In this document: positions 4,426 to 10,042 of the stretch, piece by piece | Layout: every line of letters starts with the position of its first letter | How positions within the stretch are numbered: the stretch's first letter is position 1 | The notes under the pieces: generated by a model | Databases searched by the model: none | Seen by the model: the letters and a program-made list of their open reading frames with translations, nothing else | What the model was told of the DNA's origin: nothing | NCBI RefSeq assembly: GCF_014651915.1 | Contig: NZ_BMXU01000001.1 | Coordinates: forward strand, 1,054,001 to 1,118,000 | Source of the DNA: Parvularcula lutaonensis | GTDB lineage: Bacteria; Pseudomonadota; Alphaproteobacteria; Caulobacterales; Parvularculaceae | DNA length: 64,000 nucleotides | Reading direction: 5' to 3' | Translations under genes and position numbers: made by a program

Positions 4426-4884
4426 ATGCCTGGACTTTGGTTTTCAGAGTTCGAAGAAGGACAGGTCTTCGAGCACGAATGGACGCGCACGGTCACAGAG
4501 AGCGACAATATGTGGTTCTCGATGATGACCATGAACACGCAGCCGCTGCATATCGACAGGCACAAGGCCGCGGAGACGGAATTCGGTCAGCCGCTGGTCA
4601 ATTCCCTGTTCTCGCTCGGTCTTCTTGTCGGCATGACGGTGAATGACACGACGCTGAACACCACGGTCGCGAACCTGGGCATGGAGAAGGTGCGCTTCCC
4701 GGCACCGCTGTTCCACGGCGATACCGTCCGTGCCAAGACAACCGTCATCGGTGTGCGCCCTTCGAAATCCCGGCCGGGCCAAGGCATCGTGACATTCCTG
4801 CATGAACTGTTCAAGCAGGACGGCACGCTGGTCGCGAGCTGCGAACGCGCGGCCCTGATGAAGGCGAAGCCCGAAGGCGCCTAG
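4426..4884 (+). CDS. MaoC-like hotdog dehydratase
   Basis: A 152-residue single-hotdog protein of the MaoC/(R)-enoyl-CoA hydratase family. Visible features are FEEGQVFEHEWTRTVTESD at the N-terminus, the hydratase-type segment MMTMNTQPLHIDRHKA and the central GLVNS-like helix region NSLFSLGLLVGM. The conserved Asp/His pair of hydratase 2 enzymes is partly present (D47-like and H45-like positions in LHIDRH). The likely substrate is an acyl-CoA, but which one cannot be told. Its start abuts the previous stop, and its stop shares a CTAG with the convergent gene at 4881, leaving no room for a terminator between them. Confidence 0.85.
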   Translation: MPGLWFSEFEEGQVFEHEWTRTVTESDNMWFSMMTMNTQPLHIDRHKAAETEFGQPLVNSLFSLGLLVGMTVNDTTLNTTVANLGMEKVRFPAPLFHGDTVRAKTTVIGVRPSKSRPGQGIVTFLHELFKQDGTLVASCERAALMKAKPEGA

Positions 4885-6329
4885 TGCGCAGGGGAAGCGA
4901 AGGCTTCGACAACTGCGTTAAGAAGAGCCTGGACGTCCATTTCGGCTGAGGCGTTCTCTCGGCGGGTCGCCGACGGGATCGCCTTTTGCGGCAGCGGGTC
5001 GACAGTAAAAGGCTGCGGCCAGGGCAGCTTCGGGTCGAGAAGGAGCGCCTCGCCCGGCTCGAGCCGCGAGCATTCCCGCGCGATATCCGCCTCGGCGCCC
5101 TGCCCTTCTCCGAGACGGGCGATGGTTGCTGCGTGGCGGTGAAGGATGCAAAGGCTGGAGGCTTCGGCACCGTACCCCGCGGAACGCACTACGGCAAAAC
5201 GTCCGTGGACCGCGCTCAGCTCATCACGCTCCGTAAAGAGATCATCGCAGCCATCAATGGCCAGCAGGACAGGCACCCTCCCGGCGGCCTGTTCACCCAG
5301 TGTCCGCGACAAGCGCAGGATGACGCGGGCAGCCACGGGCTTGAGCGCGTCATCGACATCGCCGAGCTGGCAGACTGCCATGGGCGGGCGACCGTCGGGC
5401 AGTCGGAAAAGACGCTGGAGGATTGCCTCCGGCGTCAGGTCCTCGGCGGCCTCGCCAAAGAACAGCGCGAGCCTCTCATCGTCCCGCGCATCGCGGAGCC
5501 GCCTGAGGAGGGAGGCATAGGCATCGTGGGAAGCTGCGCCCGCCTGGCCACGCTCGCGCTCGAACGCCGCGATGAGCTGCTTCAGCGAGCGTTCGCCGGC
5601 CACTTGCGCCATGCGCAGGAAGTACCATTCGTCATCCGTCAGCGGAGTATCGAAGGCTTCGAGGCAAGCCCGCATCTCCTCAGATGTCAGGAGACCGGCA
5701 GGCAGCAGGGCTTGGTTGCAATCTACGATTGACGCTGCCCGCCCGAAACTCGCCGTGAACCGACTGTCTGCATCGAGAAACACCAGGCGCGCGGGGAAAC
5801 GCTGCCTCAGCAGCGCACGGACCACCACCGCGAGCGTTTCGCCCGTGTCCTGATCACTGTCGCCAACAATTTCGAGGCCCTCGGCCAGGAGCCGCTGGGC
5901 GTCCAGTAGCAGGCTGGTATCGCAAGTGGCGGCACCGAGCGGCACGGGTGCAGCGAAGCGGCTCTGCCACTCGCCGAGCGCCGCTTCTCGATCGAGAATG
6001 GTGGCCCGCGCTCCGACTGCAGGGCAGCATGGCTGCGGCTGCGGAATTCCCTCACAGCTCAGCCTGCCCACAAGTTCAGCTTCGATGATGACGAGCTCAA
6101 AGCTATCTGCGTCGGCATCGGCGGCGGGAGTTTCGACGCCGCGGATCACCGCGATCGCCCGCGGGTCGCCTTCGATTTCGAGATAGGTGCCAACGGTCAC
6201 GCCGGCGTCCCGCGCCCTGTCCGCAGGCATGGCGACCAGCGTATGGACAGCTGATACGGCGGCGACGACGCCGGTGGCGGATGGGCTGCGTTCTTGATTG
6301 AACGATAGCGGCTGGGGGGCTGCGTTCAC
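4881..6329 (-). CDS. HerA/FtsK-like ATPase homologue with degenerate P-loop (pseudo-ATPase)
   Basis: A 482-residue protein that follows the plan of bacterial HerA-like (DUF87) ATPases but has lost the nucleotide-binding residues. Residues about 20-90 resemble the N-terminal HAS-barrel. At 152-166 the expected Walker A GxxxxGK(S/T) reads EIVGDSDQDTGETL, without Lys. RLVFLDADSRFTASFG (181-196) sits where active homologues have the LLDPHNEY segment. VLLAIDGCDDLF (354-365) is a degraded Walker B, and CSRLEPGEALLLD (420-432) matches the family's C-terminal strand. GTG start, overlapping the upstream kinase-like gene as GTGA. The fold assignment is my alignment from memory; loss of ATPase activity is inferred. 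It probably works as a partner of the gene upstream. Confidence 0.6.
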   Translation of the reverse strand: MNAAPQPLSFNQERSPSATGVVAAVSAVHTLVAMPADRARDAGVTVGTYLEIEGDPRAIAVIRGVETPAADADADSFELVIIEAELVGRLSCEGIPQPQPCCPAVGARATILDREAALGEWQSRFAAPVPLGAATCDTSLLLDAQRLLAEGLEIVGDSDQDTGETLAVVVRALLRQRFPARLVFLDADSRFTASFGRAASIVDCNQALLPAGLLTSEEMRACLEAFDTPLTDDEWYFLRMAQVAGERSLKQLIAAFERERGQAGAASHDAYASLLRRLRDARDDERLALFFGEAAEDLTPEAILQRLFRLPDGRPPMAVCQLGDVDDALKPVAARVILRLSRTLGEQAAGRVPVLLAIDGCDDLFTERDELSAVHGRFAVVRSAGYGAEASSLCILHRHAATIARLGEGQGAEADIARECSRLEPGEALLLDPKLPWPQPFTVDPLPQKAIPSATRRENASAEMDVQALLNAVVEAFASPAH

Positions 6330-7081
6330 GCGGCTTTCTCCTGAACGGTTCCGGGAAGCGCCAGCACCAGCGCAGGCCCATCATCGAGCTCGATTTCGTC
6401 AAGGCGCAGGTCGGCCCGCATCAGGTCAGTACGCAGCGACCGGAGGACTGAGAGCGGCAGCCCTGCACGACCCGAAAGAAGCTGAAAGGTAATAAGGACA
6501 TCGCTCCCATGCCGCCCGCCCGAAGTGACCGACAGGCCAACCGCGCGGCGTTCGCCGCCGTCGACACAGAAGGCAGCGAAGACGCGCTGCAGGGCCCGGT
6601 AGAGGTCTCGACTCGGCAGCGTGGTGGCGGGCAGCTCGTCGTCGATTTCGACGCGGCCGACGAACAGCGCGTTGGCATGCTCCTGCAGCAGGCGCCGGAG
6701 GATTGGCAGCGGGTCCGTCCCTGGCGCGCGCTCCTCGACGGGTCGTGGCGCGTACGCCGCCGCCTCGAGAATCGCGTCGATCTGCTCGCGTAGATTCTCC
6801 GCGGACTGAAGGACATGATCGAGATACTCTTTCGCCTTCTCGGCGGGAAGATCTGGGTTCTCACGGACCATCCCGGTGAAACCGGTGATGTGATTGAGCG
6901 GTGTACGGAGTTCGTGGTTGAGTCCGGAGAGGAACGCGGCCTTGGAAGCTTTCGCCTGTTCCGCATCGAGCTTGGCTGCGGCAGCCTCGCTCTGTGCCAG
7001 TCGCAGAGCCCGGCGCGCGGCATAGCTCTTCGCGTATTCGCGAAGGTAGCCCGCGCCGGAGGTGCCGATCGTGCGCCGCAT
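6326..7081 (-). CDS. Histidine kinase-like protein with intact H-box but no ATP-binding motifs
   Basis: A 251-residue soluble protein. Residues about 22-48 form an Ala-rich coiled coil, followed by a HisKA dimerisation/phosphotransfer helix with the H-box FLSGLNHELRTPLNHI (His56). The C-terminal half aligns by position with a HATPase_c domain and ends in the typical ALVLALPG strand, but the N-box asparagine reads AAF and the DxGxG and GxG boxes are absent. It should not bind ATP, so it may act as a phosphotransferase, phosphatase or scaffold. The ATG at 7081 has the ribosome site GAAAGGGG; an upstream TTG at 7132 is less likely. No membrane segment is present. It is translationally coupled to the HerA-like gene. 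Confidence 0.75.
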   Translation of the reverse strand: MRRTIGTSGAGYLREYAKSYAARRALRLAQSEAAAAKLDAEQAKASKAAFLSGLNHELRTPLNHITGFTGMVRENPDLPAEKAKEYLDHVLQSAENLREQIDAILEAAAYAPRPVEERAPGTDPLPILRRLLQEHANALFVGRVEIDDELPATTLPSRDLYRALQRVFAAFCVDGGERRAVGLSVTSGGRHGSDVLITFQLLSGRAGLPLSVLRSLRTDLMRADLRLDEIELDDGPALVLALPGTVQEKAA

Positions 7082-7145: not shown

Positions 7146-9041
7146 TTAATCCAAAGACTCGCCGACCTTATCCAGTGCCTCTTCCTTGGCTTTCTCGATC
7201 GCGTCCGGCTTTTCCTCCTTGGGCGTTTCGTCCCCTTTCGTCCGGTTCAGGACAGAAGGGGGCACATAAGCGAGGACCCGGTCTCCCGGCTTCAACTGGA
7301 AAGGCCGGTCGGAGCTCACGAACTGCAGTTGACCGTCGCGCTCGATCATGACGATGACACTTTCCTCGCCGATGGCTTCGAGGAACTCCTCCGGGCCGTA
7401 ACTGTCGGAGATCCGCGTCAACTGGAAGCCCCAGCCGTTGTAATGGCGCTGCATCAGCTCATCGAGGCTAAGCGGTTTCGACAGAAGCGGCCGCCCCTGC
7501 AGGGCATAGGACACCGCACGCCGGTGCTCGCCGACGCCTTTCGGAGAAGATAGCTGGAACGTCCGTGAACGGTCCATTTCATGGGCAAGGTCAGTGCAGA
7601 CCAGGGCATTGTGGCTTTCGTTCGGACCGACGGCGAGCAACGTGTTGTAGCGCCCGAACTCGATGTGATGATCGGAGACCTCGGACAGGATCTCGCCATA
7701 GAATGTGTCGAGCCCCCTGTTCCGCGCCGGCCGCAAGGCGCGGTAGCTCGAATCGGCGATCAGGACGGGAACGTCCAGTTCTCTGAGCTTCTCTCCCAAA
7801 GCTGCGGACCAGGCCGAGCCGCCAACGATCAGGACGCCGGGCCGGCCCGTATGGGCCAGGCCCATCCGCTTCGCCAAGGGCCCGATGGTAAAGCCGTGTG
7901 CCACCACTGTGGCGAAGACCATGGCGAAAGCCAGCGGGACCATCTTCTGGCCGTCCATGTAGCCAAGCTCCACCATTTTGGCCGCGAAGAGCCCGGAGAC
8001 GGCGACGGCGACGATACCCCGCGGCGCAATCCAGCCAATCAGCAACCGCTCCTTCCACGTGATCGGGGTGCCGATGAGGGACAGGATCACGGAAGCCGGG
8101 CGGACGATGAACAGCATGGCAATGACGTACAGCGCATCGGACCAGGTGAGGCTGAACAGGATTTCCGGCGTCAGGTTGGCCGTCAGCATGACGAAAACGC
8201 CGGAGACGAACATCACCGCGATGTTCTCCTTGAACTGACGAAGCTGGTTGATGCTTGGCAGCTTGGCATTGGCGATGGTGACACCCATCGCGGTCACCGC
8301 TAGCAGCCCGCCCTCTTCCTGCAGCGCATTGGCTAGCGCGAAACAGACCAGAACCGTCGACAGCAGCACCGGTGTCTTCAGGAATTCCGGCACCCAGCCA
8401 TTGCGGAAACTGCGGGCGATGAACAGGCCCAGGACAATGCCAAGAACCGTCGACAGGACTGATCCGAGAAGGAGGCTGCCCGTGACTTGGAAAGGCGAAA
8501 GCCCGCCTGCTGCCGGATCGGTGAGGTGCAGCACCTCGAAGACAAAAACAGCGAGCAGCGCGCCGATCGGATCGTTGACGATGCCCTCCCACCGAAGGAG
8601 CGTTGCAGGCCGGCTTGAAAGTTTGGCCTGACGCAGCAGCGGCATGATGACCGTCGGTCCGGTGACCACCATGATGCCCGAGAAGAGAAGCGCCGTGGGC
8701 GCACTGAGCCCCGCGATCTTGTGGGCGGCGAGATAGCCGAAGATCCAGGCGAGGAAGACCCCAGGCACCACGAGGCGGCGCACGCCCTTGCCGACCTCGC
8801 GCAGCTCATCGAACCGGAGCTGCAGGCCACCTTCGAACAGGATGATACCGACCGCGATGGAGATCAGTGGACTGTAGACATCGCCGAGGATTTCCTCGGG
8901 TTTCAAAACCCCCATCACGGGACCAAGAATGATCCCCGCGATCGCCATCAGCACGATGGCAGGAAGGTTCAGCCGCCAGGCCAACCATTGGGCGCCGATC
9001 CCGGCGAAGCCGATCAGCGTGACCGCGAAGACGATATCCAT
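7146..9041 (-). CDS. CPA1-family Na+(K+)/H+ antiporter with RCK/TrkA-C tail
   Basis: Inner-membrane cation/proton antiporter for pH and salt homeostasis. Residues 1-390 hold about 12-13 membrane helices with GIILFEGGLQL and the antiporter core GPTVIMPLLRQ...EGIVNDPIGALL, in which the ND pair is the expected ion-binding site. A Rossmann-like RCK_N domain follows (VLIVGGSAWSAALGEKL, about 405), then a TrkA-C domain (about 520-595) and a charged tail rich in Glu and Lys. The RCK glycine motif is loose (GGSAWS), which I believe is normal in this subgroup, so NAD binding is uncertain. Start ATG with GGAGAGG six bases upstream. Confidence 0.93.
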   Translation of the reverse strand: MDIVFAVTLIGFAGIGAQWLAWRLNLPAIVLMAIAGIILGPVMGVLKPEEILGDVYSPLISIAVGIILFEGGLQLRFDELREVGKGVRRLVVPGVFLAWIFGYLAAHKIAGLSAPTALLFSGIMVVTGPTVIMPLLRQAKLSSRPATLLRWEGIVNDPIGALLAVFVFEVLHLTDPAAGGLSPFQVTGSLLLGSVLSTVLGIVLGLFIARSFRNGWVPEFLKTPVLLSTVLVCFALANALQEEGGLLAVTAMGVTIANAKLPSINQLRQFKENIAVMFVSGVFVMLTANLTPEILFSLTWSDALYVIAMLFIVRPASVILSLIGTPITWKERLLIGWIAPRGIVAVAVSGLFAAKMVELGYMDGQKMVPLAFAMVFATVVAHGFTIGPLAKRMGLAHTGRPGVLIVGGSAWSAALGEKLRELDVPVLIADSSYRALRPARNRGLDTFYGEILSEVSDHHIEFGRYNTLLAVGPNESHNALVCTDLAHEMDRSRTFQLSSPKGVGEHRRAVSYALQGRPLLSKPLSLDELMQRHYNGWGFQLTRISDSYGPEEFLEAIGEESVIVMIERDGQLQFVSSDRPFQLKPGDRVLAYVPPSVLNRTKGDETPKEEKPDAIEKAKEEALDKVGESLD

Positions 9042-9086: not shown

Positions 9087-9863
9087 TCAGGCGTCCTTGA
9101 AGTTCGGCTCTCTCTTTTCGATGAACGCCTTCATGCCTTCTTTCTGGTCCTCGGTGGCGAAGACCGAGTAGAAAAGGCGACGCTCGAAAAGGACACCTTC
9201 GGCCAGGGTCGTTTCGAAGGCGCGGTTCACGGCTTCCTTGACCATCATGGAGACAGGGCGCGAGTAGCCCGCGATCTTCTTCGCGACCTCGATGGCCGTA
9301 TCCATCAGCTCGGCCTTCGGCACGACGCGGGAGACGAGGCCGCAGCGTTCGGCTTCCTCGGCCCCCATCATCCGGCCGGTCAGGCACATGTCCATGGCCT
9401 TTGACTTGCCGATGAACCTGGCCAGGCGCTGGGTGCCGCCTGCACCCGGGATGGCGCCGATGGTGATTTCCGGCTGGCCAAACTTGGCATTGTCCGCCGC
9501 GATGATGAAGTCGCACATCATCGCCAGCTCGCAACCGCCACCCAGGGCATAGCCCGCAACCGCCGCGATGACCGGCTTGCGGGTACGGGTGACCTGTTCC
9601 CAGTTCGAGGTGATGAAGTCTTCGAGATAGGCCTCGGTGGCCGTCTTGTCGGCCATTTCCTTGATGTCCGCACCTGCGGCGAACGCTTTCTCGGAGCCGG
9701 TGATGATGATGCAGCTGATCTTCGGATCCGCATCGGCAGCCTTCAGCGCGTCGGTCAGCTCGTTCATGAGTTCGTTATTGAACGCATTGAGCGCTTCGGG
9801 CCGTGACAGGCGGATGATCTGGACACGATCGTCGGTTTCGGTCTCTAGGCAGTTGTAAGCCAT
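9087..9863 (-). CDS. Enoyl-CoA hydratase (crotonase family)
   Basis: Soluble hydratase of short-chain trans-2-enoyl-CoA, a beta-oxidation step. The 258 residues match mitochondrial-type crotonase. The oxyanion segment [11 protein letters not shown] and both catalytic glutamates are visible: one in [11 protein letters not shown] and one in [19 protein letters not shown]. The ATG at 9863 ([10 protein letters not shown]) is preferred; an open frame upstream to 10022 is Arg/Ser-rich, unlike the family, and overlaps a strong hairpin. The gene stands alone on the minus strand. Confidence 0.94.
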
Positions 9864-9898
9864 AGGAAATTCGCTCGTCTTTCTGCCGTCCACGGGAG

Positions 9899-9938
9899 CG
9901 GGACAAGAGGCCCCAATAGACCTCTCATTACTGTCCCG
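9899..9938. promoter_or_regulatory. Nested inverted repeat in the divergent ech / small-ORF spacer
   Basis: CGGGACA (9899-9905) pairs with TGTCCCG (9932-9938), and directly inside it AGAGG (9906-9910) pairs with CCTCT (9921-9925), giving a 12-bp stem with a 6-nt bulge on one side and a 10-nt loop. It lies 36 bp upstream of the enoyl-CoA hydratase start, in its likely leader. A second small stem, GCGGAC/GTCCGC, follows at 9951-9967. It could be an operator or an RNA structure; the sequence alone does not decide. Confidence 0.4.
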
Positions 9939-10042
9939 CAACAGCCGTGGGCGGACGCTTTGTCCGCATCTTCGGGGGTGACGGGAGGCGTGAGCGTCGC
10001 TATCTGCGCTGCTCAAGATCATTTCCTCGTTCGGAGATCCGC

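Follow-up and report, generated by a model that had tools for sequence, protein, structure and literature searches.

A kinase-like and a HerA-like gene without recognisable ATP sites in Parvularcula lutaonensis

What does selection keep of a histidine kinase (HK) after its kinase activity has ended, and what does a HerA motor do beside a kinase at all? Both questions are raised by a gene family with a member in the stretch of Parvularcula lutaonensis DNA analysed here (64,000 nucleotides, contig NZ_BMXU01000001.1, positions 1,054,001 to 1,118,000; hereafter the window). In the window an HK-like gene is joined to a HerA-like gene, and both encoded proteins lack the motifs by which their relatives handle ATP. 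We favour, with moderate confidence, the reading that the pair is an ATP-blind end stage reached by an old alphaproteobacterial unit of an HK and the ring-type DNA-pump ATPase HerA, in which a kinase-dead DHp dimer would work with a HerA-derived, non-motor partner. Because the ATP-handling parts are lost while the stretch around the histidine is kept, we suggest that the pair relays or senses signals rather than burning ATP.

The HK-like and HerA-like proteins

Both genes, and the features within them given below, lie on the minus strand. The HK-like gene (positions 6326–7081, from an ATG at 7081 to a TGA at 6326) encodes 251 amino acids, and its coordinates and motifs were confirmed. An N-terminal helix leads into a DHp (HisKA) hairpin, followed by a CA (GHKL) core that lacks the F-box, the ATP lid and the G2 box. 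The H-box is intact (LNHELRTPLNHI) with His56 as the phospho-acceptor, the codon of which, within NHELRTP, was read from the sequence at positions 6914–6916. Pfam gives a HisKA match at an E value of 3.7e-12 and no HATPase_c match for this protein. In the CA remnant (approximately residues 121–245, positions 6347–6721), the N-box Asn, the G1 motif DxGxG, the F-box, the lid and G2 are all missing, as judged from the alignment, a motif table and the secondary structure of the model. The F-box, ATP lid and G2 were deleted rather than mutated, and the protein is correspondingly short (251 amino acids versus 281–322 in relatives). Of the parts expected in a HisKA kinase, the DHp H-box with its histidine is present and the N, G1, F and G2 boxes are missing from the CA domain; a degenerate ATPase domain beside a kept DHp histidine is the combination that marks DHp-type histidine phosphotransferases (ChpT, Spo0B and PhyT). 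The predicted structure (predicted local distance difference test, pLDDT, 81; predicted template modelling score, pTM, 0.56) shows a single long helix that continues as the DHp hairpin, and beside it a small alpha/beta domain that has no lid. Its best matches in the PDB are mostly DHp-CA structures of HKs, DivL included.

The HerA-like gene (4881–6329, GTG start at 6329 and stop at 4881) overlaps the HK-like gene in the sequence GTGA at 6326–6329, where the start of the former meets the stop of the latter. It encodes 482 amino acids, fewer than its complete relatives (527–571), with an N-terminal beta barrel and a RecA-like core devoid of catalytic motifs. The former Walker A, GDSDQDTGET (residues 156–165, positions 5835–5864), has no lysine and aligns with the GxxGxGK[ST] of relatives, namely with GDAGTGKSAS in a sister species and GTTGAGKSCA in others. 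The former Walker B, LLAIDGCDDL (residues 354–363, positions 5241–5270), carries Gly at the second acidic position of the alignment. Pfam finds no HerA or DUF87 match, and nothing else credible, in this protein. PADLOC gives the only HerA match obtained from the window protein alone; that match is weak (E 5.8e-4), and the HerA ancestry rests mainly on relatives. An AlphaFold2 model, built on an alignment of mostly HerA relatives, is of moderate confidence (pLDDT 69, pTM 0.64), and all 50 of the PDB rows listed for it are HerA or HerA-complex entries. Thus the fold and ancestry of a HerA ATPase are present, as far as a model of this confidence tells, and its Walker A and Walker B motifs are not. 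The alignments behind both structure models comprised the window protein and related loci only (51 relatives for the HK-like and 45 for the HerA-like protein, at 18–29% identity), and the fold matches are for that reason partly carried by the relatives.

An earlier, sequence-only reading had described a perfect H-box without N, G1 and G2 boxes, GTGA coupling, a Walker A without lysine and a weakened Walker B (AIDGCDDL in the alignment). These observations held, with both frames intact and the F-box as a further absence, and the two models returned the folds that it had expected. A wrong frame or a chance motif is ruled out by orthology and synteny. Searches of the window's genome for a second HerA copy found none, whether the query was the HerA-like protein itself (cut-off E 0.001) or an intact relative (1e-20). 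At its 3′ end the HerA-like gene overlaps a convergent MaoC-type hydratase gene by four bases (4881–4884).

The unit among relatives and the order of its losses

A HerA-like homologue is present in all 62 Parvularculaceae genomes searched. The HK-like gene adjoins it in 60 of them; G058 and G061 are the exceptions, and there HerA runs to the contig end. In all nine same-genus pairs and in 16 of the 60 family pairs, the HK stop codon overlaps what could be a start codon (ATGA, GTGA or TTGA). A genome scan for related loci kept the 80 best (of 175 relatives). By our count an HK is present at all 38 loci that we assign to Parvularculaceae and at 35 of the 42 others, mostly Hyphomicrobiales, and two of the seven non-family loci without one end at a contig edge (L173, L184). 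Among 22 aligned members, which include the window and its three clade mates, DUF87 matches 19 HerAs, HisKA all 22 HKs and HATPase_c 18 HKs. Elsewhere the pairing is less regular. At 13 HerA loci belonging to three further families of the order, no short HK-like gene adjoins HerA; two of these loci carry a large HK in the stretch, in L204 about 400 bases upstream of HerA. Six more HerA loci (L107–L112) have no HK within about 1.4 kb, and the HerA homologues examined in Sinorhizobium and Nitratireductor are without one. At six HK-less loci, Pfam reveals no partner in common among the HerA neighbours. A search of 289 genomes of the class with the HK profile matched mostly ordinary kinases, and we took from it only three short open reading frames (ORFs) adjoining HerA (L206, L219, L230). 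The soluble HK and the HerA ATPase form an old unit that is mostly vertically inherited in Alphaproteobacteria, but such a HerA also occurs unpaired. On the Nitratireductor plasmid pOM-1 (L290, 4061–7411), an HK-less HerA homologue is directly followed by a gene annotated as a bifunctional diguanylate cyclase/phosphodiesterase, here a signalling neighbour of a different kind.

Two upstream genes served as syntenic markers in the window's genome (G000, 2.95 Mb): a cation/proton antiporter (7146–9041, minus strand; PF00999, E 5.5e-40) and an enoyl-CoA hydratase (9087–10022, minus strand; PF00378, E 1.4e-88). Many relatives, the loci L039–L041 of the window's own clade among them, have these two genes, the HK and HerA in the same order as the window, and the immediate neighbours of the pair in the window are, by Pfam, the antiporter and the MaoC-type hydratase.

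That clade comprises four species with degraded pairs: the window's (G000), G053, G054 and G056. Their HKs, from which F-box, ATP lid and G2 have been deleted, are 248–252 amino acids long against 281–322 in others, and their HerAs 465–482 against 527–571 for complete ones. G000, G053 and G054 lack the Walker A lysine; G056 keeps the P-loop (GDAGTGKSAS) and has Gln at the second Walker B acid. Outside the clade, the Walker A position is Lys in 57 of 58 genomes and Thr in one, and the Walker B acid is Glu in 54, Asp in two and a gap in two. The genome with Thr (G013, locus L016, genus g3), whose relatives keep Lys, either lost the lysine independently or owes the Thr to a mistake in its fragmented assembly. 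In G052 (L042, G052:C2:373000-387000) HerA is divided into two ORFs of 435 and 116 amino acids with the P-loop intact in the first, owing to truncation or to a sequencing or assembly error.

The HK motifs have fared differently from one another. In the 56 HKs of the family outside the degraded clade, the His is kept in all 56, the G1 Asp in 53, the G2 glycines in 50–53 and the N-box Asn in nine, whereas all 38 HKs from outside the family have the Asn (two further rows of that table of 40 are Parvularculaceae). The five other HKs of the window's genus have G1 and G2 partly eroded too. In the HELRTP box, His, Arg, Thr (H+4) and Pro are present in 60 of 60 family members and Glu (H+1) in 57. The former Asn site is now occupied by T, A, C, S, I, L, F, Y or H, as expected if the position is no longer in use. 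A rooted HerA tree, made without HK sequence and for which 29 family members and 10 outgroups were chosen, puts the loss of the Asn at two places (two changes, 2–2 in bootstraps): on the Marinicaulis/Amphiplicatus side and within the genus of the window. In genus g8 (L054, L057, L080) the box reads HRLRTP or HALRTP: the Glu beside the phospho-acceptor and the N-box Asn are gone and the His is kept. These proteins mark a second route to an HK that is probably kinase-dead.

The four degraded species are monophyletic in the trees of the antiporter (100/100), the enoyl-CoA hydratase (100/99) and four markers together (100/100). Within them, the P-loop-less trio groups together in the rooted HerA tree (100/98) and the HK+HerA tree (98/99), with weaker support in the four-marker species tree (78/82). 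The antiporter tree alone sets G053 outside G056 (90/88), against the HerA trees, and in the hydratase tree the positions of G000 and G056 are not resolved. Unique shared residues side with the HerA trees: 27 in HerA for the P-loop-less trio versus 7–8 for triples with G056, and 16 versus 8–12 in the HK. A single origin of the P-loop loss is favoured by these data, not proven. The loss is specific to the lineage and, given a single origin, old. The likely order, as read from the motifs on the trees, is the N-box first, twice in the family, then the lid, G1 and G2, and the HerA P-loop last.

The sequence-only reading had taken both coupled genes to have lost ATP handling. The pair is conserved and both genes did lose it, though the losses are best read as successive: a single clade has lost the P-loop, and the N-box had gone before. 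Sisters with an intact P-loop, which by that reading would point to recent decay and count against it, do exist, both in the same clade (G056) and in the same genus (G050, G051, G052, G055, G057 and G058). Recent decay does not follow from them: three species share the loss, synonymous sites are near saturation and the frames are open.

Constraint on the degraded pair and its possible roles

For pairs within the degraded clade, the proportion of synonymous differences (pS) is 0.63–0.74 in both genes, close to saturation. Across this divergence the HK and HerA frames are open in all four species, the latter over 465–482 codons. Between G000 and G054, 73% of second codon positions are identical in the HK and 69% in HerA, and 39 of 89 and 55 of 147 fourfold sites, respectively. 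Identity of the G000 HK to those of G054, G053 and G056 is 68, 72 and 49% in the DHp domain and 48, 28 and 32% in the CA remnant. Conservation of the HK-like protein in the clade peaks at the H-box core (residues 48–68, positions 6878–6940), where 18 of 21 residues are invariant in all four species (hypergeometric P 2e-12). These substitution patterns show purifying selection focused on the H-box. From them we infer that the DHp dimer is what selection keeps.

How might such a dimer act? The HK-like protein would have lost self-phosphorylation and still act through the DHp dimer, which at His56 may take phosphate from, give it to, or dock an unlinked response regulator, with ChpT, Spo0B and PhyT as precedents for transfer and DivL for docking; a natural first step would be dephosphorylation or reverse transfer. 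Possible partners are numerous, with 43 receiver-domain matches in the window's genome, 40 of them above the cut-off. The HerA-like protein may persist as a non-motor partner or scaffold of the dimer. The PDB entries matched by its model carry the titles HerA hexamer, SIR2/HerA and HerA-DUF4297 complex; because HerA relatives form rings and bind partners, to go by these titles, an HK-HerA complex is a fair guess. A joint, purified scaffold or phosphotransfer system, as the sequence-only reading had it, is therefore plausible. More tentatively, an ATP-dead, HerA-derived ring might be a static platform for kinase-dead DHp dimers, the motor-plus-kinase unit having turned into a pure phosphate-relay or receiver-sensing scaffold.

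Several observations weigh against the favoured reading. The stem branch of the clade is 2.11 for HK+HerA versus 0.26 for the markers, a ratio near 8, and the HK+HerA tips are long (1.34 in G056 and 1.1 in G053; markers 0.13 and 0.14). The stem of the genus is 0.44 versus 0.096, a ratio near 5. Constraint on the pair was therefore relaxed or changed, and the long stem fits relaxation as well as a new function. With synonymous sites this close to saturation, estimates of the ratio of nonsynonymous to synonymous divergence (dN/dS) are rough, and some of the constraint may be older than the losses. Conservation of the H-box could serve dimerisation alone. No response regulator is linked to the pair, and the HerA-like model is of moderate confidence.

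The long branches are what would be seen if the unit had become functionless in this Parvularcula clade and were slowly eroding with the H-box lagging behind; the divided HerA of G052 and the missing lysine of G013, both outside the clade, point the same way. We consider such decay rather unlikely: frames remain open in four of four species despite near-saturated synonymous divergence, second positions are far more alike than fourfold sites, most of the H-box core is invariant, and the P-loop-less trio has 27 HerA residues uniquely in common. Recent pseudogenes are not favoured, as the loss is clade-wide, synonymous sites are near-saturated and the frames are open. A role that overlaps with the favoured reading, and is not exclusive of it, is that of a response-regulator phosphatase, with autophosphorylation lost and the receiver-dephosphorylating motif HExxT kept. 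N347 of EnvZ we take to be the N-box Asn. Paper titles describe EnvZ-N347D as kinase-minus/phosphatase-plus with reverse phosphotransfer, and name EnvZ activity without the kinase catalytic domain. The near-complete retention of Glu at H+1 and the invariant Thr at H+4 agree with such a phosphatase, but the three g8 genomes lose the Glu while the His stays, so that the HExxT motif is not what they retain, which points to the His itself, and the usual control would be gone once the nucleotide pocket was lost. We regard a phosphatase as possible, though doubtful.

Much less probable is an anti-phage defence unit akin to Sir2-HerA or DUF4297-HerA. The best PDB matches include the SIR2/HerA and HerA-DUF4297 entries, and an intact relative (L052) scores 3.4e-115 against PADLOC HerA and 7.6e-73 against NCBIfam HerA_antiphage_2; its 246 bits, however, fall well below the NCBIfam cut-off of 850. 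Defence genes usually show a patchy spread, whereas HerA occurs in every Parvularculaceae genome searched and is syntenic in many. Nor does a nuclease, Sir2, DUF4297 or NurA gene adjoin the pair, which in the window has only the HK, the antiporter and the MaoC-type hydratase around HerA.

Comparison with known systems

We found no report of an HK-HerA pair in the literature searched, judged by titles and the starts of abstracts and with subscription papers mostly outside its coverage. One match, PMC12839542, concerns BREX. Repurposing of degenerate kinases in the manner of DivL, ChpT or PhyT is already known; what is new is that the partner is HerA and that both proteins have lost their ATP sites. 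The family amounts to a natural experiment in four stages, from a kinase and an ATPase whose motifs are all complete (Hyphomicrobiales), through an N-box-less kinase beside a P-loop HerA (most Parvularculaceae, by two independent losses) and a lid-less kinase beside a HerA that keeps its P-loop (G056), to the window, where both ATP sites are gone. Should the platform reading be true, the intact HK-HerA would be an unrecognised alphaproteobacterial machine linking two-component signalling to DNA translocation.

DivL is a Caulobacter pseudokinase that senses DivK~P; it has PAS domains and a Tyr in place of the His (PMC4211667). Like the HK-like protein it is an alphaproteobacterial DHp-CA protein, and it works without kinase activity; among PDB sequences matched by the HK profile, its structure 4q20 ranks second (E 9.5e-50). 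The HK-like protein differs in its invariant His, a lone helix before the DHp domain, the deleted CA lid and the HerA partner gene. ChpT, Spo0B and PhyT combine a DHp-type His with a degenerate ATPase domain and pass phosphate on (PMC5898713). The HK-like protein resembles them in keeping such a His beside such a domain. Unlike ChpT (PF10090) it is a HisKA protein (PF00512) with a HELRTP box, and phosphotransfer by it is a prediction. It has no PF10090 match at E up to 1, and replacement of ChpT is excluded, as the genome's one PF10090 match lies elsewhere (C1:630939-631277). With the HerAs of HerA-NurA, Sir2-HerA and DUF4297-HerA the HerA-like protein shares fold and ancestry; it differs from them in the missing Walker A lysine, the altered Walker B and a partner that is an HK rather than a nuclease or Sir2.

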